Source: a virus. From it: 22,980 bases of DNA. The stretch spans positions 1 through 22,980 of IMG/VR virus record IMGVR_UViG_3300015371_000191. One strand, given 5' to 3'. Positions 5,834 through 22,980 of the stretch are shown one piece after another. The notes below the pieces were generated by a model. That model saw only the letters and a list, made by a program, of their open reading frames with translations. It was not told the origin of the DNA and made no database searches. The position numbers and the translations under genes were made by a program. Within the stretch, counting starts at the first letter, position 1. The number at the start of each line of letters is the position of its first letter.

Positions 5834-7231
5834 ATGCCATTCACAATTCCGAACGCTGCGAGCGCGGAAGATGTAACCCAGGCTCAGCCCGATTCCATCG
5901 ACTTCGCAATCTTGGTTGCAGCGTTCTCTGGAACGGGAGTTGTGTCTGGTTGTGCGGTTACAGCACAGGGAACACCAAACATGACAGTCGCAATAGCCTC
6001 AGGTTCTGTGGCTGTCAACGGGAGTCAGGTTTCTGTGACGGGTGGCAACGTCACCATTGCAGCGGCCAACGCCACAAATCCCAGATTCGATCTGGTGGTG
6101 GTAGACAACGCAGGCACCAAAGCTGTGGCAGCAGGCACAGCAGCCGCTAATCCTGTATTCCCCGTGATCCCCGCAAACAACGTGGTTCTCGCTGCTGTGA
6201 GAGTTCCTGCGGGAGCCACGTCCATCAACACACCGAAGATCACCGACAAGCGTGTGACCGCTGTGATGCCTCCACCGCCCTCATTCTCTGTGGGAATGAT
6301 GATGCCCTATGCGGGTGCCGCAGCCCCTTCAGGATGGGCGCTTTGTGATGGATCAGCAATTAGCCGCAGCACCTACTCCGGCCTATTCTCACTGGTGGGC
6401 ACAGCTTACGGTGCCGGTGACGGAAGCACCACGTTCAACCTGCCTGACCTCAGAGGCCGTGTGCCAGTGGGATACGCAGCCTCCGGTGGACACGCAGATG
6501 TTGCGGCCCTTGGGGCTAACGACGGCACAGCCCTTGCCAGTCGCAGACCAAGGCACATACACACGAATGGCTTGACGCTGCCTAACCACGTCCACAGCCA
6601 CACGTTGAGCCTGCCGGATCACGCACACGCAAGCTCCTTCACGCTGCCCAACCACATCCACTCCCACTCGTTCACCCTGCCATCCCACACCCACTCGCAC
6701 AGCCTGTCGTTGCCAAACCACGTCCACTCATTCAGCGATCCTGGACACATCCACTCGCTGACGGATCCGGGCCACGCCCACAGTATCTACGATCCGGGCC
6801 ACGCCCACAATCTCTACACGGGCGGAGCAAATGAGGGAAGCGTCTATATTCGCTCAGCCACGGACGCGGGACACAACATATCTACACCCGTTGATCCAGC
6901 GGTCACAGGCATCGCGATCAACAACAACTTCACAGGCATGTCAGTCAATGGAAATGGCACGGGAGCGTCGATTGGGAATCCGAGCACCAATCCCACGGTA
7001 GGCGGGGGTATCGGTGCTCCCAGTGGTTCTCCAGGAATCGACGGTGCTGTTGGTAATCCATCCAGCAACCCTTCAGTCAGTGGCTCAGTCGGTAGCGTCA
7101 CTAGCTCGCCAGCTATCCCAGGTTCTGTGGGAAATCCATCCACCAACCCATCGATCATCGGCACCATTGGTGTGGTTGGTTCCACAGATTCCGAGTCGTA
7201 TCAGGTGGTGAATTACATCATCAAGCTGTGA
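5834..7231 (+). CDS. Tail fibre with tail-collar domain, His-x-His needle and 13-residue repeats
   Basis: The start is ATG 5834, preceded by AGGAGG at 5817-5822; the open frame runs further upstream only as read-through of the end of the previous gene. The 465-residue product has an N-terminal adaptor (FTIPNAASAEDVTQAQPDS), a beta-rich section, and a phage tail-collar domain at ~155-215 (PSGWALCDGSAISRSTYSGL split, STTFNLPDLRGRVPVGY). Residues 241-325 carry nine clusters of HxH or HxHSH. A repeat of 13 residues follows (6968-7162) and then a short C-terminus. HxH clusters in T4 gp37 bind iron along the receptor-binding needle, so the same role is inferred here. It is the likely receptor-binding fibre. 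Confidence 0.85.
   Translation: MPFTIPNAASAEDVTQAQPDSIDFAILVAAFSGTGVVSGCAVTAQGTPNMTVAIASGSVAVNGSQVSVTGGNVTIAAANATNPRFDLVVVDNAGTKAVAAGTAAANPVFPVIPANNVVLAAVRVPAGATSINTPKITDKRVTAVMPPPPSFSVGMMMPYAGAAAPSGWALCDGSAISRSTYSGLFSLVGTAYGAGDGSTTFNLPDLRGRVPVGYAASGGHADVAALGANDGTALASRRPRHIHTNGLTLPNHVHSHTLSLPDHAHASSFTLPNHIHSHSFTLPSHTHSHSLSLPNHVHSFSDPGHIHSLTDPGHAHSIYDPGHAHNLYTGGANEGSVYIRSATDAGHNISTPVDPAVTGIAINNNFTGMSVNGNGTGASIGNPSTNPTVGGGIGAPSGSPGIDGAVGNPSSNPSVSGSVGSVTSSPAIPGSVGNPSTNPSIIGTIGVVGSTDSESYQVVNYIIKL
6554..6802 (+). repeat. His-x-His repeat region of the tail fibre
   Basis: Two alternating unit types are seen: LPxHxH(SH) (for example LPNHVHSHTLSLPDHAH) in the first part and DPGHxHS in the second (DPGHIHSLTDPGHAHSIYD). 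Nine HxH clusters lie between residues 241 and 325. The spacing is about 9-10 residues, which fits one metal layer per unit in a trimeric needle. Confidence 0.9.
6968..7162 (+). repeat. Five tandem 13-residue repeats (39-nt period)
   Basis: The units read SIGNPSTNPTVGG, GIGAPSGSPGIDG, AVGNPSSNPSVSG, SVGSVTSSPAIPG and SVGNPSTNPSIIG. The consensus is x-[IV]-G-x-P-S-x-x-P-x-[IV]-x-G. The period is exact with no insertions, which suggests a shaft made of stacked turns in a trimeric fibre. Confidence 0.9.
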
Positions 7232-9441: not shown

Positions 9442-9945
9442 CTACGTTGCCCTCCCTCCACCATCAACTTCGGCCCAATTTGCAATAATCTTGGCAGTTG
9501 TGCCACCAGTCTTCAAGTCCACGAGATTGAAACCTGCGCCGAATGTGGCCCATTGTAGGAGATGACGCAGAGCGTCCATCCCGTGTGGGATTCCACGTTT
9601 GTAGACCCCGTGGCTCCTGAGCATTTTGTCGGTGTAGTAGGCTTTCCCGAATGACGCCTTCTGCATGAAGACCCTGAGCTTGCCAGTAGGCTCGGTCATC
9701 TCCCATAACCTGACGACACCGATCAACTGCACTGGAAACAGGTTGAGTCCCGTGCTTGCACGTCCACGAAACTCAAAGTCTTCCATGACTATGATGTTAG
9801 GTTTGAACTCGTCTAGCCTGCGCCACAAGTCGTCAACCTCGTCCATCATCTGAAACGGAAGACACTCAAGTTGTTTGTCTTCAGTGATCCTGGCGTACAC
9901 GTATCCAGTCATCACGCCAGGATCAATCGCCAGGATCTTGGTCAC
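9442..9945 (-). CDS. RuvC-like Holliday junction resolvase
   Basis: A 167-residue protein with the RNase H-like resolvase fold: strand 1 ILAIDPGVMTGYVY (Asp8), IIVMEDFEFRGR (Glu55), and a C-terminal helix HGMDALRHLLQW with Asp124 and nearby His121. These are the expected metal-binding acidic positions of RuvC-family enzymes. The GTG start at 9945 lies four bases after the stop of a 27-residue microprotein gene. It probably resolves branched replication or recombination intermediates before packaging, working with the annealase and nuclease encoded upstream on this strand. Confidence 0.82.
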   Translation of the reverse strand: MTKILAIDPGVMTGYVYARITEDKQLECLPFQMMDEVDDLWRRLDEFKPNIIVMEDFEFRGRASTGLNLFPVQLIGVVRLWEMTEPTGKLRVFMQKASFGKAYYTDKMLRSHGVYKRGIPHGMDALRHLLQWATFGAGFNLVDLKTGGTTAKIIANWAEVDGGGRAT

Positions 9946-10033: not shown

Positions 10034-12552
10034 ACCGTCATCTCCTTCATGTTGCCCCAGTTGTGTCCGACACTCAAGTCGGCCTTGAATGGGAAAGCCC
10101 ACCCTATTGACTCCAGAGCAGCCTTCTCCATAAATTCCTTAAGTAGCGCGCCCACTTCTTCGACATGGCTCTCCCTCGCGTTGACGAGAATGCTGTCGTG
10201 GACTGTGATGCGTGGCTGAGCAATGTGCCACATGTTGTTCTCTCGGAGATACTTGGTGAACTTGATGAGTGCCCACAACGTGATGTTGGCTGCGATGTTC
10301 TGAGGCTTGAAGTTGATTCCTTCCTTGATAACATGCAACCTGGCCGACTCATCTGCGGGAATGATGTAAAACCGACGCTTGTGACCGAATGGGGATTGTA
10401 GCTCACCTTTGGTCATCACCAGTTTCTCAGTATCCTTCGTCCATTCCCATACCTGCGGGAACCGTTCCCACCAAAAGTCGATGTACTTCTGAGCCTCAAC
10501 CTGCGGCATGTGGTAAAGCTGCGCGAAGCTGAAAGCTGACTGCCAGTACGCTACTCCGAAGTTGATGTTTTTGGCTCGGACATATTGCTCGTAGGTGTAG
10601 TCCTTGCCATAAAATTCTGCCGCCACTTCCTTGTGAAGCGAGCGATCTGTGTCGAGATAAACGGACTGAAGACTTCTATCTCCTGACAGTACGGCAATCG
10701 CTCGAAGCTCTGCCTGAGACAAGTCTCCACTAACGAATACACATCCGGGGTCAGGGATAAATGCAGCTCGTATTGATGGGATGCCTGCTTTTGGTCTGGT
10801 GACGTTCTGGAGATTCGGATTGGCACTAGATACTCTCCCGCTTTCCGTGCCGTGAATCTTAAATTCAGTGTATATTCTTCCATTCGGGAACCTCCTGAGT
10901 ACCAGACCCTCAAAGTACGTTCCACGTTGCTTGTCCAGTTCTTTGAAATCGTCGTAGATTTGCGTGAACTGTTGGATGGCCTCTCGTCCCTTGTCGTGGC
11001 CGTACGTGACAGTGGTGAACTCACCCATCAGGATCGCTTCGCGGACGTACTGATCTGTTGAGCGTTTGCCCAGCCTTTCTATCTTTGGACGGATTAGCTG
11101 GTGCTTGATGCCCCAGTCCTCGTAATACAACTTCTCCATCTGCTTTGGAGAATTGGGGTTAACTGCGCGACCAGCCATACGCGACAACGATCCACGCTGT
11201 TTCTTTAGCTTGGGCCATACCTCATCCTCAAGGATGTCACACGCTCTATCTGAGTCGAATAGGTTGCCTTCCAACTCGATGTGAGCCAGCGTCTCAGAGA
11301 GATCGATGAGCATGAGCTTGTACGGCCTTGTCCATACCTCATCGTTTATCGCCCTGGCCTTGAGGATATGAAAGAGAGCAAGAGTACCAGCGCAGTCAAA
11401 ACCGTTATATCCATATAGTTCACTTTGTGCCCTCTTTATCTGGTCGGGTGCAGATCCGTAATAGTCAAACGTGCCCTTCGTCTTGAAATGGCGTACTGAG
11501 GGAGGCTCATACTTGGGCCAACCGATCTCATCCTTGAGTAGCCAGTCAAGCGAATGACCACCGGCACCCGAATCAGGATCGCCAGGTCGTTCATCCAGAC
11601 ACCATGACAACAACAGGGTGTCCTCGTCAACTCGCATATCGATGCCCTTCGACAGAAGCACCTTGGCATCGTACTTCCCGTTGTGCCAGATATACGAGCA
11701 GCCTGGGATATTCCACAGACCAGCGACTAGGTGCAGTCCCTCGGGATCAGTACATACGTTCTCACCGAAAGCCACGGCACGCTCAGGACGTATAGAGAAC
11801 CCGACGCACACAACTTGTGCCGTGTGTCGCAGACCCCCTCTACCCTTCTCAGTGTCCTTGTACGACACGTCATCGGTGCCCCTCGCCTCAATGTCGGTTG
11901 CAACCAGCGTGGGATTGTCGATCAACTGCTCGCGCATGGCATCCACAGCAATCCTGGCTTCATCGGTAGTGTCGATGATGCGAACCTTGGGGAGTTCCGG
12001 CGTAGGTAGGGGATCCAGCGCAAGTCGGAAGTCACGCATCAGCTCGGGGTAGGTACCATCGTTTCTGATAGCCATTGCGGGATTACTGGATACGATCACA
12101 CGTTGGGTTTTTCCATCAACTCTACGATCGTGGACAAAACCACGATTACGACCGATCGAATTGACACCAGCAATTGCCCACGCAGACTCTACACCACAAG
12201 CTATGATCGTGTCAGCGTGAGCAATCTCAGCCTCTAGGCGAGGCTCGCAGCAGCCCATAGCCAAAGAGAAAGCAGTCTTGTCCTTCTCTTCCTGCGGCCC
12301 TGGTGATTCACAAAGCACGACGTTTGTGGCTAGCACGTCCTTGCGCGAAGTGCCGTGAACCTGTAGCAGGTGGTCGAGTACCTTGCCTGACAGACCTGCG
12401 AACGACCTACCCTGCTGTGCCTCCATGTAACCCGGCGAGCGTGACACTACCGCTACCTTCGCATCATGTGGCCCCGTTGTAGCAGCGAACGCCCTATCCT
12501 TGAACGGACATTTCTCGCACACGGCGAGTGGATGCTTGCGCTCATTCTTCAT
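10030..12552 (-). CDS. Family A DNA polymerase with N-terminal uracil-DNA-glycosylase-like domain
   Basis: I choose ATG 12552 (840 residues) because it overlaps the upstream stop by 11 nt; the frame is open to 12651 but those residues are read-through of the upstream gene's Pro-rich end. Residues ~10-180 resemble family 4 UDG: CEKC (12, 15), SPGYMEAQQGRSFAG, VLCESPG (Cys81), GCCEPRLE (Cys101/102) and SSNPAMAI, so a 4Fe-4S cluster is likely. The 3'-5' exonuclease has DIE (Asp220, Glu222), HNGKYDAK (Asp294) and YNGFD (Asp385). The polymerase has GDLSQAELR (Asp609), RAKNINFGVAYW (Lys660, Phe664) and VHDS (Asp785). Phage SPO1 polymerase has a comparable fused N-terminus. It is the replicative polymerase. 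Confidence 0.93.
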   Translation of the reverse strand: MKNERKHPLAVCEKCPFKDRAFAATTGPHDAKVAVVSRSPGYMEAQQGRSFAGLSGKVLDHLLQVHGTSRKDVLATNVVLCESPGPQEEKDKTAFSLAMGCCEPRLEAEIAHADTIIACGVESAWAIAGVNSIGRNRGFVHDRRVDGKTQRVIVSSNPAMAIRNDGTYPELMRDFRLALDPLPTPELPKVRIIDTTDEARIAVDAMREQLIDNPTLVATDIEARGTDDVSYKDTEKGRGGLRHTAQVVCVGFSIRPERAVAFGENVCTDPEGLHLVAGLWNIPGCSYIWHNGKYDAKVLLSKGIDMRVDEDTLLLSWCLDERPGDPDSGAGGHSLDWLLKDEIGWPKYEPPSVRHFKTKGTFDYYGSAPDQIKRAQSELYGYNGFDCAGTLALFHILKARAINDEVWTRPYKLMLIDLSETLAHIELEGNLFDSDRACDILEDEVWPKLKKQRGSLSRMAGRAVNPNSPKQMEKLYYEDWGIKHQLIRPKIERLGKRSTDQYVREAILMGEFTTVTYGHDKGREAIQQFTQIYDDFKELDKQRGTYFEGLVLRRFPNGRIYTEFKIHGTESGRVSSANPNLQNVTRPKAGIPSIRAAFIPDPGCVFVSGDLSQAELRAIAVLSGDRSLQSVYLDTDRSLHKEVAAEFYGKDYTYEQYVRAKNINFGVAYWQSAFSFAQLYHMPQVEAQKYIDFWWERFPQVWEWTKDTEKLVMTKGELQSPFGHKRRFYIIPADESARLHVIKEGINFKPQNIAANITLWALIKFTKYLRENNMWHIAQPRITVHDSILVNARESHVEEVGALLKEFMEKAALESIGWAFPFKADLSVGHNWGNMKEMTV

Positions 12553-13078
12553 AGAAATTGGAAGGTGGGGGTTGTGGGGGCTGTGGGGACGTACGATTCC
12601 TGACGAATGTGTCCCGGTATGGCAGGAACGGCAGAGACTCCACGATATCACTTCTGCCGATCGCTGTCAAGAGCCGGTCGGCAGATAGGATTCCCGCGTA
12701 CTCAATCCCACCAGTCATGTAGTTCCTGATGCTTCGTCTGGAAACACCTGACAGACGTTGGAGTTGTATCATTCCTCCACGTCCACCGTTCATGTTGTTG
12801 TACTGCTCCAACCATTCCCTGATGTACGGGAGGATGAAGCTGACGTGAACGAACAATTCCTGTCCACTACTGCCACGTCTCTCAAACGTGGGAGGCTCGT
12901 ACAGTATCCGCTTGAGACGACGTTTCTCAGAATTGAGGGTCGCACGTTTGTCTCTGAGAGCAGCGATCTGTTTGTCGATGTCGAGAATCTCATCGACTAT
13001 CGTTCGTACACGTGGAACTAAAGCTGTATGGAGAGCTGACTGCTTTCCCTCAGCTATCTGACGTGATGATTGTGGCAC
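12542..13078 (-). CDS. Helix-turn-helix protein with N-terminal coiled coil
   Basis: A 178-residue protein from GTG 13078, with GAGG six bases upstream. It overlaps the dNMP kinase gene by 29 nt. Residues ~20-58 form a charged helix (ALRDKRATLNSEKRRLKRIL) likely to dimerise. Residues ~105-150 contain LQRLSGVSRRSIRNYMTGG, a helix-turn-helix similar to Xre/MerR-type recognition helices, followed by ILSADRLLTAIGRSDI. The end is Pro-rich (PQPPQPPPSNFYEE). It probably binds DNA, as a regulator or replication accessory factor; it is the only clear HTH candidate for the operator-like sites on this strand. Family not recognised. Confidence 0.6.
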   Translation of the reverse strand: MPQSSRQIAEGKQSALHTALVPRVRTIVDEILDIDKQIAALRDKRATLNSEKRRLKRILYEPPTFERRGSSGQELFVHVSFILPYIREWLEQYNNMNGGRGGMIQLQRLSGVSRRSIRNYMTGGIEYAGILSADRLLTAIGRSDIVESLPFLPYRDTFVRNRTSPQPPQPPPSNFYEE

Positions 13079-16065: not shown

Positions 16066-16100
16066 GTTGGGCGCGGGCACCCCACAGACCCGCGCCCAAC
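16066..16100 (-). promoter_or_regulatory. Perfect 12-bp hairpin immediately before the primase start
   Basis: GTTGGGCGCGGG (16066-16077) and CCCGCGCCCAAC (16089-16100) are perfectly complementary with an 11-nt loop. On the - strand the hairpin begins 15 bases after the DUF669-like stop and ends seven bases before ATG 16058, where a Shine-Dalgarno would normally be. There is no T-tract. It could be a terminator/attenuator, an mRNA 3'-end stabiliser for the upstream genes, or a protein-binding site controlling primase translation. Confidence 0.75.
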
Positions 16101-18893: not shown

Positions 18894-20153
18894 CTACCTA
18901 TCTCTTGTTCGTGTGTAGTTGTCTGCGAGGAGTGCTTCCCAATCACCGCCGTCTTCCTTGGCTAGACACGGCGCTCGGAATGCACAGTTGAGGCAACGAT
19001 GATCGTTCGACAGATTCGGGTAGATGCGAAGATTGGGGTCTAGCATGTCCATCGCCTCTTGATACGCACGGTATCCTGCGTTCTTGAGTTGATGTCTGTT
19101 CCTCCGCTCTAGCTTGCGGATGAAGAACTGCTCGTCACCTATCTCCTGCACGTACCTGACGTACTCCTGGTGCTTCTCAGGCAGCGAGTCGAAGTCGATC
19201 GAGTTGGCCTGCATGAACTCTTCAAGCATCTCCCACGTGGTTGACTCGTTGTTTCTGTCAACGGAGAAGAGGCCACCGCGTACCATCGTTGGGGGCTTGG
19301 GATACGTTTTGCGGAGTACATTGTATACACACTCCTCCATTTCCTGACCAGCGTAGGGCAGCCCGTAATACTTGGCTTCAACCTGCGCTGCATAGAGATA
19401 GGACGTGACCTGCTCATCAGTCTCCAACTTCCTGAAGAAGTCTTCATCTATGCGAGAGCTGGTCTTGTGGTCAATCACTCCTAGCTTACCATTTGGTTTG
19501 GCCCAAATGGCATCCATCCTACCTCTCTGATGGACTTCCAACACTTTGCCGTAGTTGGGTGAGTGCTTGCGTAGATCGACAGCTTGAAGAATGGTGTCGT
19601 GCTCGTAGTCCCAGATCGGGATGGAGAAGTCGTGCTCACACACAAGCACTTCAAAGTTGTCGCGCATTTCAGCGAACTTCTTGTACGCTGTCATCATCTG
19701 AATCCCTAGCTCTTTAAGCTCGTCGTACTCCAACGAGTCAGCATCGGGGATGATGTCCTCTAGCCCACGCACCACCCATAGGTGTTCGCCCTTGTGTTCC
19801 ATGGGGCGGGGATTAAGGTCGTATACACGATCTAGCCACTCTTCTGTGACTGTCCCGCCGCGCCACTGAACGTCGAACCATGTGAGCCATGCTTCGACAG
19901 GATCCCGGCGCAGGCCAGGTGTGTAGTATTGCTCTAAGGCCCAGTGTATTCCGGTGCCAAACCACAAGTCTGTGTTGACACCATGTATGTCCGCGCGCAG
20001 AGACAGGTTATGTCTCGCGGGACTAGTCCAATCGAAGTATCTACGACACCGCTTGAAGGATCCCCGATCCGAATTGTGAATCGGGATCACTTCGTACTTC
20101 GATGGAATTTTTGGAGGCTGCCACAGACCTTGCGCTATCTGTGTTTCTGTCAC
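18894..20153 (-). CDS. Cas4/AddB-like PD-(D/E)XK nuclease with iron-sulfur cluster
   Basis: GTG 20153 with GGAG nine bases upstream; 419 residues. The PD-(D/E)XK core has GTGIHWALE (His70), GRMDAIWAKPNGKLGVIDHK (Asp214, Asp228, Lys230; here motif II is D and III is HK) and a helix with QVTSYLYAAQ. Cys36 (FKRCRRYFDW) together with Cys387, Cys390 and Cys396 (HRCLNCAFRAPC) forms the split four-Cys 4Fe-4S pattern of Cas4, AddB and related RecB-family exonucleases. It probably resects DNA ends to make ssDNA for the Sak4-like annealase. It is the first gene after the promoter and structured leader at 20200-20302. Confidence 0.87.
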   Translation of the reverse strand: MTETQIAQGLWQPPKIPSKYEVIPIHNSDRGSFKRCRRYFDWTSPARHNLSLRADIHGVNTDLWFGTGIHWALEQYYTPGLRRDPVEAWLTWFDVQWRGGTVTEEWLDRVYDLNPRPMEHKGEHLWVVRGLEDIIPDADSLEYDELKELGIQMMTAYKKFAEMRDNFEVLVCEHDFSIPIWDYEHDTILQAVDLRKHSPNYGKVLEVHQRGRMDAIWAKPNGKLGVIDHKTSSRIDEDFFRKLETDEQVTSYLYAAQVEAKYYGLPYAGQEMEECVYNVLRKTYPKPPTMVRGGLFSVDRNNESTTWEMLEEFMQANSIDFDSLPEKHQEYVRYVQEIGDEQFFIRKLERRNRHQLKNAGYRAYQEAMDMLDPNLRIYPNLSNDHRCLNCAFRAPCLAKEDGGDWEALLADNYTRTRDR

Positions 20154-20199
20154 TCACTCAGCTCCCGTGCTTGTGCGTGAGACGTGCCAGATGAATTAT

Positions 20200-20256
20200 G
20201 CGGTTCTGGTGGGAGAGCGCAATTGCCTAGGCGAGGGGGGAACCGCGCTCTCCCAC
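20200..20256 (-). promoter_or_regulatory. Structured leader: 12-bp stem with competing 7-bp pairing
   Basis: In the predicted 5' leader of the nuclease gene, GTGGGAGAGCGC pairs perfectly with GCGCTCTCCCAC (20245-20256 with 20209-20220; loop 24 nt, containing the palindrome GCCTAGGC at 20225-20232). A second pairing, GCGGTTC with GAACCGC (20240-20246 with 20200-20206), starts inside the first loop and closes after the first stem. The two overlap by two bases, so they are alternatives or form a pseudoknot. This looks like a regulated leader or a strong mRNA cap. Confidence 0.65.
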
Positions 20257-20262
20257 AGACGC

Positions 20263-20291
20263 CCGAAGGGGGGATACTATCACACCTTCGG
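20263..20291 (-). promoter_or_regulatory. Operator-like palindrome centred on the -10 box
   Basis: CCGAAGG (20263-20269) and CCTTCGG (20285-20291) are inverted 7-bp half-sites with a 15-bp spacer. The centre is base 20277, inside the -10 hexamer at 20274-20279. Half-site centres are 22 bp apart, about two helical turns, which suits a dimeric repressor on one face of the DNA. Confidence 0.5.
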
Positions 20292-20302
20292 CCGGGAGTC
20301 AA
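20274..20302 (-). promoter_or_regulatory. Sigma-A-type promoter for the nuclease-to-lysis operon
   Basis: On the - strand, TTGACT (20302-20297) is followed after exactly 17 bases by TAGTAT (20279-20274), with TGA directly before it, so it is also an extended -10. TTGACT matches TTGACA at five of six positions. Transcription would begin near 20267, giving a leader of about 113 nt before GTG 20153. It lies in the largest gene-free gap of the - strand block (20154-20322). Confidence 0.65.
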
Positions 20303-20874: not shown

Positions 20875-20886
20875 CTCTCCCGTTTG
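20875..20886 (-). promoter_or_regulatory. Start-associated cassette CAAACGGGAGAG (copy 2)
   Basis: The same 12-mer as at 18607-18618, here five bases before ATG 20869. It lies in the 29-nt gap after the 59-residue gene and fixes the start of the 71-residue gene. Confidence 0.7.
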
Positions 20887-21078: not shown

Positions 21079-21262
21079 TACTCTCTCCCGTTTGATTGTT
21101 GAGAGCGGACGCTACTATGTCTGCTTTCTCTATCGTGTCAGTAGTACAGACGAACCGCTCACCAAGTGTCTTGCCTGTTGTGTCGATCACCGCGAATTTG
21201 GCCGGTGGGTAGGTTGATTTGGTTCTCTTGACTTGGAATCTGCCCTCCTCCACGTTACTCAC
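21071..21262 (-). CDS. Small hypothetical protein
   Basis: The likely start is GTG 21262 (MSNVEEGRFQVKRTKSTYPP..., 63 residues), which overlaps the helicase stop by 8 nt; GTG 21253 and upstream starts to 21289 are possible. The sequence AKFAVIDTTGKTLGERFVCTTDTIEKADIVASALNNQ (read in parts) has the strand-turn-strand-helix pattern of small phage proteins that resemble 'value-of-field' repeats, but I cannot name a family. The last codons double as the third cassette copy (encoding QTGES). Confidence 0.58.
   Translation of the reverse strand: MSNVEEGRFQVKRTKSTYPPAKFAVIDTTGKTLGERFVCTTDTIEKADIVASALNNQTGESNA
21083..21094 (-). promoter_or_regulatory. Start-associated cassette CAAACGGGAGAG (copy 3)
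   Basis: The third identical 12-mer, four bases before ATG 21078. It lies inside the coding end of the preceding gene, so the cassette is kept even where it must also encode Gln-Thr-Gly-Glu. A related but shorter form, AACGGGAG, precedes ATG 22916. Confidence 0.7.
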
Positions 21263-22916
21263 TCTCGTCAGGTAGGGCATCCGAGCCACCCTGGCCGCCG
21301 AAGATTTGGCGGAACCAGCCAGCCTTGGTGTTTACAGTGTCGAGGACACGATAGTCCACTGTGTTACGCGCACGGATGTAGATGAGCTGGACAGCACCAG
21401 TCTGACCCGGCCTGTACACACGACCAATCGCCTGCTTGTTCTTTGCAGGACTCCATGACTGATCGATGAAGATGGCCCTGTGTGCGCTGGTGAGGTTGAT
21501 TGACTCAGCACCCAGATCCAGCGTGCTGATGAACACCATGTGCTCCTTCTTGGGCCATGTCTCGTGCCACATCTCGTACCTGGCCTTGTCGTTCATCTCA
21601 GCCTTGAGATGCAGGAACGGGATGTTCGCCTTCGTGAGCCTGGTTGCGAGTAGTTCAAGTGGATCCTTGAAGTTGCAGAACACGACCACCTGATCCCTAC
21701 GCTCGTCATCCCACTCAAGACCGTCGATGACTTCCATCGCAGCATCGAGTTTGGATGATGGCTCCGTGAGCTTCACCTTAATCTCACGGCGTTCGAGCTT
21801 CTCATTCCACTCGTCACTCTTCACCTCAGGCGTGGCATCCGACACCTGCCTCAGACGATTGAGCAGCGACAGAACGTTGGGACTGTGGAGTGGCACACCC
21901 TGTGCGTCCAGTGTCCACAACTCGTCCATCAGCTCGTTGTACATCTTCTGCTGGATCGGCCCAAGATCCACAGGGATCTCAGTCTCGATAGGCTCTGTGA
22001 TGTTCGGGAAGCACTCCAGCATCGTGCGCCTCACGCCCACATTCCTGACGAGTTGCTTGAACTCCTCTTCCTTGTCGGGCTTGATACCCACGATCTTGCG
22101 GTACCCGCTGTAGTCGTCCTCCTGACAGAAATACTCCCTGAACGGCCAGTACCCTGTGCTGTTGACGATGCTTGCGTGAGGACTGCTGCGCGATCCGCTG
22201 TACAGGAAGTCAAGCAGACTCCAAATCTCGGCTGGGTTATTCACGAACCCTGTACCGGTCATGAGGTGCTTGTACGCAGCCTTGATCTTCTTGATGTTGC
22301 GTGTCCACTGGCTGTCCATGTTCTTCAGCCTGTGCGCCTCATCGGTAATCACGACGTCCCAGTGTGCATTGAGTAGCCAGTTGCACTTGGGGATCACCAT
22401 GTCAATCGTCCCGTCCTCCTTGAGGATAGGCCGCTTGACCTTCTTGCCGTTGTCGAGCGTGACCATGTGCGTCTTCTGCTGTGGAATGCACGCTCTGTTG
22501 GTGAAACAGTGGTAATGCGCGAGCGCAATCACCGGCCGCATGTACAGCGGGTTGGGAAACTTCACGTTCCACGGTGTGACCCGTGATCCCATCACCAGCG
22601 ATGTCTTCTTGGCGTCGATGTTGAAGATGTCCCACTCAGGCAACACCTCCCACAGACTCTCCAAGTATGGCCCCTTGCCGGTCTTCGTGGTGATAATCAG
22701 GATCCTCGGATTGGGGATGTGCGTGGTCTTCTGCTCAAGAAGCCACTCCGCAGTCGAGGTCTTGAATGATCCCATCTCAGACCAGTTGGCAGACCCGTGA
22801 GGAATCTCGTTCATGTACGCGATGTCCTCACGTTGGAAGTCACGGATCTGAAACTTTCCCGTTGGCTTGCGCTTCAAGATCGGCTTCCTCCGTGGCTGTG
22901 CTGATGTCTCACTCAT
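21255..22916 (-). CDS. SNF2-family DNA helicase/translocase
   Basis: A 553-residue superfamily 2 protein from ATG 22916, with GGGAGGTGA just upstream. Motif I is EMGSFKTSTAEW (Gly49-Thr53), motif II DEAH (192-195), motif III region HLMTGTGFVNNPAEIWSLLD (~218-237), motif V LDLGAESINLT (~467-477) and motif VI QAIGRVYRPGQ (495-505). The motif I loop reads GSFKT instead of the usual GxGKT, so Phe replaces the second Gly. SNF2-type proteins in phages are thought to remodel replication forks or clear bound proteins. A segment of ~75 residues separates motif Ia from motif II. The ATG follows the previous stop directly. Confidence 0.9.
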   Translation of the reverse strand: MSETSAQPRRKPILKRKPTGKFQIRDFQREDIAYMNEIPHGSANWSEMGSFKTSTAEWLLEQKTTHIPNPRILIITTKTGKGPYLESLWEVLPEWDIFNIDAKKTSLVMGSRVTPWNVKFPNPLYMRPVIALAHYHCFTNRACIPQQKTHMVTLDNGKKVKRPILKEDGTIDMVIPKCNWLLNAHWDVVITDEAHRLKNMDSQWTRNIKKIKAAYKHLMTGTGFVNNPAEIWSLLDFLYSGSRSSPHASIVNSTGYWPFREYFCQEDDYSGYRKIVGIKPDKEEEFKQLVRNVGVRRTMLECFPNITEPIETEIPVDLGPIQQKMYNELMDELWTLDAQGVPLHSPNVLSLLNRLRQVSDATPEVKSDEWNEKLERREIKVKLTEPSSKLDAAMEVIDGLEWDDERRDQVVVFCNFKDPLELLATRLTKANIPFLHLKAEMNDKARYEMWHETWPKKEHMVFISTLDLGAESINLTSAHRAIFIDQSWSPAKNKQAIGRVYRPGQTGAVQLIYIRARNTVDYRVLDTVNTKAGWFRQIFGGQGGSDALPDESE

Positions 22917-22980
22917 TTATTCACCTCCCGTTATTTCGTCGTAGCCTACAAGGTAAGTACACTTGATACAGAAGCGATGG
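22917..22980 (-). CDS. C-terminal end of a gene with a CxxC motif (partial)
   Basis: On the - strand one frame is open from the window edge to TAA at 22917-22919, reading HRFCIKCTYLVGYDEITGGE. The CIKC pair suggests the end of a small zinc-binding protein. Its last codons contain the Shine-Dalgarno of the helicase gene, whose ATG follows the TAA with no gap. Only about 20 residues are visible, so the call is tentative. Confidence 0.42.
   Translation of the reverse strand, partial: HRFCIKCTYLVGYDEITGGE

Follow-up and report, generated by a model that had tools for sequence, protein, structure and literature searches.

A conserved promoter and a leader hairpin before a phage exonuclease gene, and a covarying helicase-leader RNA whose loop may adjust early-gene translation

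Judged from conserved sequence features, the gap upstream of a phage exonuclease gene is a genuine start of both transcription (as predicted) and translation for the exonuclease operon. The balance of evidence tips slightly towards a clade of phages with an early-gene ribosome-binding motif of its own, AAACGGGAG, and a helicase operon that opens with a hairpin presenting the complementary sequence in its 12-nt loop, such that one RNA would set the translation of many early genes, the exonuclease included, with loop and motif coevolving. For the gap as a whole, the best explanation combines a conserved promoter, a leader hairpin and exonuclease translation tuned by pairing with the helicase-leader loop, and to this combination we give about even credence.

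The window analysed here is the whole of a 22,980-base IMG/VR virus record, and the region is near-identical to record IMGVR_UViG_3300000440_000033 (L002/L005, 29,670 bases). Its minus strand encodes a Sak4-like protein, a primase and a deoxynucleotide kinase in addition to the two genes of most concern:

18894–20153, minus strand: PD-(D/E)XK exonuclease gene, with a GTG start
21255–22916, minus strand: SNF2-type helicase

A nucleotide search among named phages returned no near relative of the window, named phages with a related exonuclease or helicase show less than 30% identity, and a search for the exonuclease in bacterial genomes confirmed no relative. The nearest relative is L003, with an exonuclease that is 80% identical; the exonucleases of two distant phages, G013 and G014, are 43–44% identical. 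Loci L016–L020 and L022 were retrieved with a hairpin pattern copied from L003 and none encodes the exonuclease or helicase, and four matches to a promoter-plus-box pattern (L076, L081, L083 and L084) were set aside as lacking exonuclease and helicase. Elsewhere in the window, the structural-gene region contains, at 1647–1844 and 6554–6817, collagen-like Gly-x-y coding repeats together with 33-bp and 27-bp repeats, and the proteins that carry them are probably tail or fibre proteins.

The promoter elements lie at the far end of the gap:

20297–20302, minus strand: −35 element TTGACT, identified from sequence and with the same architecture in relatives
20274–20282, minus strand: extended −10, TGA then TAGTAT (20279–20274), identified from sequence and conservation

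The spacer between the −35 and −10 is 17 nt and ends in TGA, exactly the minus-strand arrangement that an earlier note on this DNA had described, and the predicted start falls at about 20267–20265. These are the features of a sigma-70-type extended −10 promoter (a TTGACA-like −35, a spacer of 16–18 nt and TGN before TANNNT). A plain consensus scan gave no surplus of such sites (2 found against 2.3 expected), and the backing for the promoter comes instead from conservation: most relatives in which the sequence ahead of the exonuclease could be read have TTGAC(A/T)-17-TANNNT there, mostly with TGN preceding the −10. In some of these it sits 500–850 bases upstream with another ORF intervening, and in L010/L044, L048 and L052 no convincing promoter was found close to the exonuclease gene. 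An extra ORF between promoter and exonuclease in L008, L009 and L012 resembles, by eye, an HNH homing endonuclease with an AP2-like end. From the conserved architecture, host RNA polymerase bearing the principal sigma factor would initiate near 20267 at this extended −10 promoter.

Superimposed on the promoter is a dyad centred on the −10:

20285–20294, minus strand: upstream arm of the dyad, CGGCCGAAGG
20260–20269, minus strand: downstream arm of the dyad, CCTTCGGGCG

The CCGAAGG/CCTTCGG palindrome seen earlier is indeed present, with its centre at 20277, and is weak on its own (7-bp core, shuffle P = 0.034). A strict promoter scan over the contigs of the clade yielded 42 distinct promoters, and the window dyad is among the strongest of these, tying for third; six of the 42 reach a dyad score of at least 8 against 0.52 expected (maximum 4 in 200 permutations). 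Across the same set, complementarity between a promoter's own spacer and its own downstream sequence exceeds that between different promoters, whether scored by alignment (z = 3.4, 25/20,000 permutations) or by duplex energy (z = −4.0, 2/20,000 permutations), although the dyad P values are approximate, as the 42 promoters include related sequences and the dyads were spotted by eye before testing.

The placing of the dyad over the −10, and the excess of such dyads among the 42 promoters, would suit a phage repressor that binds CCGAAGG/CCTTCGG and shuts off the nuclease operon, a reading we consider unlikely. The arms are unrelated between promoters of a single phage (window:20302, CGGCCGAAGG, against window:12670, GATCGGCAGA; likewise L007:8892 against L007:5267), which makes one shared repressor site unlikely, and several relatives, L003 included, have no −10 dyad at all. 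Repression through an operator, as the earlier note had proposed, is thus unsupported in the form of one shared operator, which we rejected on the diversity of the arm sequences; the protein at 12542–13078, which that note had called a helix-turn-helix protein, has no Pfam or PHROG match. A symmetry that recurs while the arm sequence varies freely might instead reflect structure: a cruciform, or a hairpin in read-through RNA from the upstream operon, would carry the −10 in its loop and would tune promoter opening or stop read-through. The sole mismatches in L007:8892 and L028:7047 are G-T, in keeping with such a structure, but pooled mismatches are mixed (6 G-T, 2 A-C and 8 others), strong dyads occur in just about six of the 42 promoters, and the dyad is followed by no U-tract and so is not a standard terminator; we regard this second reading as distinctly improbable. 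That these promoters have dyads whose arms are unrelated is a puzzle of its own.

Downstream of the predicted start, the leader contains the following features:

20245–20256, minus strand: 5′ arm of the leader hairpin, GTGGGAGAGCGC
20221–20244, minus strand: loop of the leader hairpin, 24 nt, with outer bases able to form further G-U and A-U pairs
20209–20220, minus strand: 3′ arm of the leader hairpin, GCGCTCTCCCAC
20200–20206, minus strand: GAACCGC, the proposed partner of 20240–20246, partly within an outer stem of the minimum free energy (MFE) fold

The perfect 12-bp stem reported earlier is confirmed; it begins 11 nt downstream of the predicted start and closes a 24-nt loop. Perfect 12-bp inverted repeats with a loop of up to 30 number three in the window, against 0.017 expected per window in first-order Markov simulations. 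A second forms a hairpin at 16066–16100 (GTTGGGCGCGGG/CCCGCGCCCAAC, minus strand) in the interval separating a DUF669 gene from the primase and ends just short of an ATG, by a few bases, and the third lies at 9885–9925 (TGATCCTGGCGT/ACGCCAGGATCA, minus strand), near the start of ORF 9442–9945. The exonuclease leader has an MFE of −48.0 kcal/mol (z = −2.83), and its predicted fold consists of one long stem close to the start and, farther along, a weaker structure. At the corresponding place L003 has an 11-bp stem, GGGGAGCGCGG/CCGCGCTCCCC, and its leader has an outer stem, CGGTGC/GCACCG. When the window and L003 stems are aligned on AGCGC/GCGCT, by our reading both bases of one pair differ (A-T in the window, G-C in L003), two inner G-U pairs become G-C and one pair is broken, in a comparison of two sequences that is too small for a covariation test. 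Long leader stems are found elsewhere in the clade (13 bp in L054, 10 bp at L010:1107) with no common sequence, and many exonuclease leaders have short stems only. Taken as a set that includes the helicase leaders, the leaders of the clade fold modestly better than control segments do (mean z of −1.28 for the leaders and −0.58 for the controls, P = 0.028). Rfam gave no match in the window and tRNA only in nine related loci, which agrees with the earlier view that the leader is no known riboswitch. The earlier interpretation holds up only in part: the hairpin stands as a structure with a counterpart in the nearest relative, but a long stem is not seen in most other relatives, so that any role of the hairpin in control is putative.

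In our preferred account the transcript would open with a very stable hairpin, most likely protecting the 5′ end of the mRNA, and the hairpin would also stop the leader folding onto the ribosome-binding site. Since the long hairpin is seen in only one close relative, and the stems of L053, L054 and L010:1107 have unshared loops, 5′ protection is a default role rather than a demonstrated one. The position of the hairpin directly after an early-type promoter, comparable with that of putL just downstream of PL in phage HK022 (PMC9378689), might alternatively point to a nascent hairpin that binds RNA polymerase and confers termination resistance on the nuclease operon. This we judge very unlikely: put RNA is a pair of stem-loops that together span about 70 nt, whereas the exonuclease leader has one predicted stem, and its loop is not conserved in L003.

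The earlier note had gone further and proposed a pseudoknotted regulatory leader, in which the loop pairs with its downstream flank. The 7-nt complementarity on which that proposal draws does exist (GCGGTTC/GAACCGC, 20246–20240 with 20206–20200; shuffle P = 0.005), but the first two bases of GCGGTTC are already used in the leader stem, and the 7-bp competing pairing is weaker than the stem it invades (−9.3 against −24.0 kcal/mol). In L003 loop-to-flank complementarity reaches at most 3 nt, so the conservation or covariation of both stems in relatives that characterises an H-type pseudoknot is missing. A connector of 2 nt would, on geometrical grounds, also need to span the 12-bp stem. The pseudoknot was accordingly rejected on conservation, energy and geometry, and we regard it as extremely unlikely.

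At the other end of the leader is the ribosome-binding site of the exonuclease, ACGGGAG, which recurs on the minus strand:

20162–20168, minus strand: ribosome-binding motif ACGGGAG of the exonuclease, the proposed target of the helicase-leader hairpin loop
18609–18615, minus strand: ACGGGAG, 4 nt before ORF 18604–18080
20877–20883, minus strand: ACGGGAG, 7 nt before the ATG of a 71-codon ORF
21085–21091, minus strand: ACGGGAG, 6 nt before the ATG of a 59-codon ORF
22925–22931, minus strand: ACGGGAG, 8 nt before the helicase start at 22916

All five minus-strand copies in the window thus lie 4–8 nt before an ORF start, and most plus-strand copies are away from the starts of structural genes. 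Over 13 related records, 55 of the 88 copies of AACGGGAG have an ORF start 3–12 nt downstream, compared with 22.9% of random positions. By this distribution the ACGGGAG of the exonuclease is the early-gene motif of the clade, and exonuclease translation would begin from it at the GTG at 20153. In one related phage, G004 (L026–L028), ACGGGAG is favoured upstream of early-strand starts and AGGAGG on the opposite strand, which suggests that its two gene sets use different ribosome-binding signals.

The stronger RNA signal bears on translation: the candidate regulator of this motif lies outside the window, in a helicase-leader element (L005:5236–5306) about 700 bases upstream of the helicase start. 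A hairpin there (L005:5279–5306) closely follows a promoter of the same type as that of the exonuclease, and its 12-nt loop, UUNCUCCCGUUU, is complementary to AAACGGGAG. Promoter and hairpin with the same loop are also found at L006:2506, L007:5267, L009:5029, L010:5425, L011:3853, L012:4964, L013:1392, L043:1986 and L048:256 and in L079. The loop is shared by ten phages (one with UC for UU), with ten positions invariant, and across these phages all nine stem pairs have changed on both sides. Pairing is retained in 80% of cells, compared with 44.6% when shuffled and at most 54% in slid versions of the stem, and covariation is 0.889 against 0.253 when shuffled (0/500). Swapping 3′ arms between phages abolishes the fold (z = −6.7, 0/50,000). 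The stem limits were set by eye from the same sequences, which favours the structure over the slid controls but can hardly account for the permuted-arm result.

Beyond these ten phages, the hairpin was also seen in L079, G009 and L039; the one at L039:4673–4701 has a CUCCCGUUU loop and lies before a different gene, within a longer outer stem (CTTGGCTGGGG/CCCCAGCCAAG). An Rfam search of the helicase leaders matched no family. The exonuclease leader hairpin was considered as a member of this CUCCC-loop family and rejected: the helicase-leader covariance model, R1, gives no match in the window at E values up to 1, so the two hairpins are different elements. A second, longer hairpin follows the first at about L005:5315–5390 and at equivalent places in relatives. 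The likely start codon of a small CxxC-type (zinc-finger-like) protein falls in the 3′ arm of this longer hairpin and a GGGGGAG sequence in its 5′ arm, so that the start of this protein may be masked.

The helicase-leader hairpin has what is expected of an anti-Shine-Dalgarno RNA, namely a conserved loop, a covarying stem and complementarity to the ribosome-binding sites of several genes. In many records the early-gene strand carries exactly one reverse-complement copy of the motif, and that copy is the hairpin loop. In G013 (L056) and G014 (L057) the helicase is likewise preceded by a similar promoter and then a hairpin, with the loops UACCUCCCUGGU and CCUCCCAAACG, respectively (in G014, GUUA ends the 5′ arm), and early ribosome-binding sites of CAGGGAGG(TA) in G013 and AGGGAGGTAAC in G014. 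Sites before ORF starts with 8 nt complementary to the CTCCCGTTT loop number ten in G001, two in G014 and none in G013. For sites matching the G014 arm-plus-loop sequence the count in G014 is 16/17, and the G013 record has just three such sites. G001 and G003 also hold sites for the G013 and G014 sequences, because the motif is often followed by GT there, and G008 fits poorly (2/11 sites before ORF starts). Separation of the loop classes, in a comparison that rests on two distant phages, is clear but not absolute.

Within the window, a scan of the minus strand with the phage's own loop ranks the exonuclease ribosome-binding site best (−16.3 kcal/mol) and places the other four ACGGGAG sites among the eight best. 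Plus-strand sites reach a similar pairing strength (−16 or better in 60 windows, against 15 on the minus strand), and most ACGGGAG copies on that strand are away from structural-gene starts, so this ranking supports targeting but does not prove it. Any C-rich loop partly complements any Shine-Dalgarno sequence, and only the flanking bases can therefore discriminate. The match could then be a C-rich loop meeting a G-rich site and nothing else, with an ordinary early promoter, a 5′ mRNA-stabilising hairpin, and a dyad and distant-loop complementarity that have no role in this operon. The promoter and hairpin require nothing further, and the hairpins of the exonuclease and helicase leaders have no sequence in common. 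Yet the loop is invariant over ten positions while its stem varies freely, the match between the loop's flanks and the motif extends past the GGGAG core, and in G013 and G014 a different loop goes with a correspondingly different motif; for these reasons we think this plainer account rather unlikely.

We propose, from complementarity and joint change, that the helicase-leader hairpin controls exonuclease translation. Pairing of its loop with ACGGGAG would tune translation of the exonuclease in concert with that of other early genes, most likely by repression; that both RNAs are transcribed, that they pair, and in which direction the effect runs, we infer from sequence. Should the pairing prove real, one short RNA made by the phage could govern how a whole set of early genes is translated through a matched motif, and regulation would persist where loop and motif changed together and fail where one changed. 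The translational regulators of phage T4 have a comparable reach; the proposed phage RNA would act by base pairing instead.

Bacterial anti-Shine-Dalgarno small RNAs, such as those of staphylococci and alphaproteobacteria, present C-rich loops. Like them, the helicase-leader hairpin has a stem-borne C-rich loop that can pair with the Shine-Dalgarno sequences of several mRNAs; unlike them, it is phage-encoded, heads an mRNA leader right after an early promoter, and has a loop suited not to the general GGAGG but to a motif specific to the clade, with AAAC as an extension. The exonuclease leader, for its part, shares a strong stem near the mRNA 5′ end with the 5′-terminal stem-loops that stabilise bacterial mRNAs such as ompA, but a distance of 11 nt separates its stem from the predicted 5′ end. 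In the open-licence literature we found no phage RNA of the helicase-leader design. Among the literature compared, the nearest described system for the helicase-leader hairpin appears to be the c4 antisense RNA of P1 and P7, another phage RNA with sequences complementary to a ribosome-binding region, which are thought to lie in loops and which block translation by pairing near the ribosome-binding site (PMC12197685). c4 has one target gene, ant, whereas the motif matched by the helicase-leader loop stands before many genes and differs from one phage group to another in step with the loop. For a hairpin immediately after an early phage promoter, as in the exonuclease leader, the nearest system in the same literature appears to be HK022 put RNA (PMC9378689), in which two stem-loops with shared sequence act on RNA polymerase, whereas the exonuclease leader has a single stem, with a loop that is not conserved.
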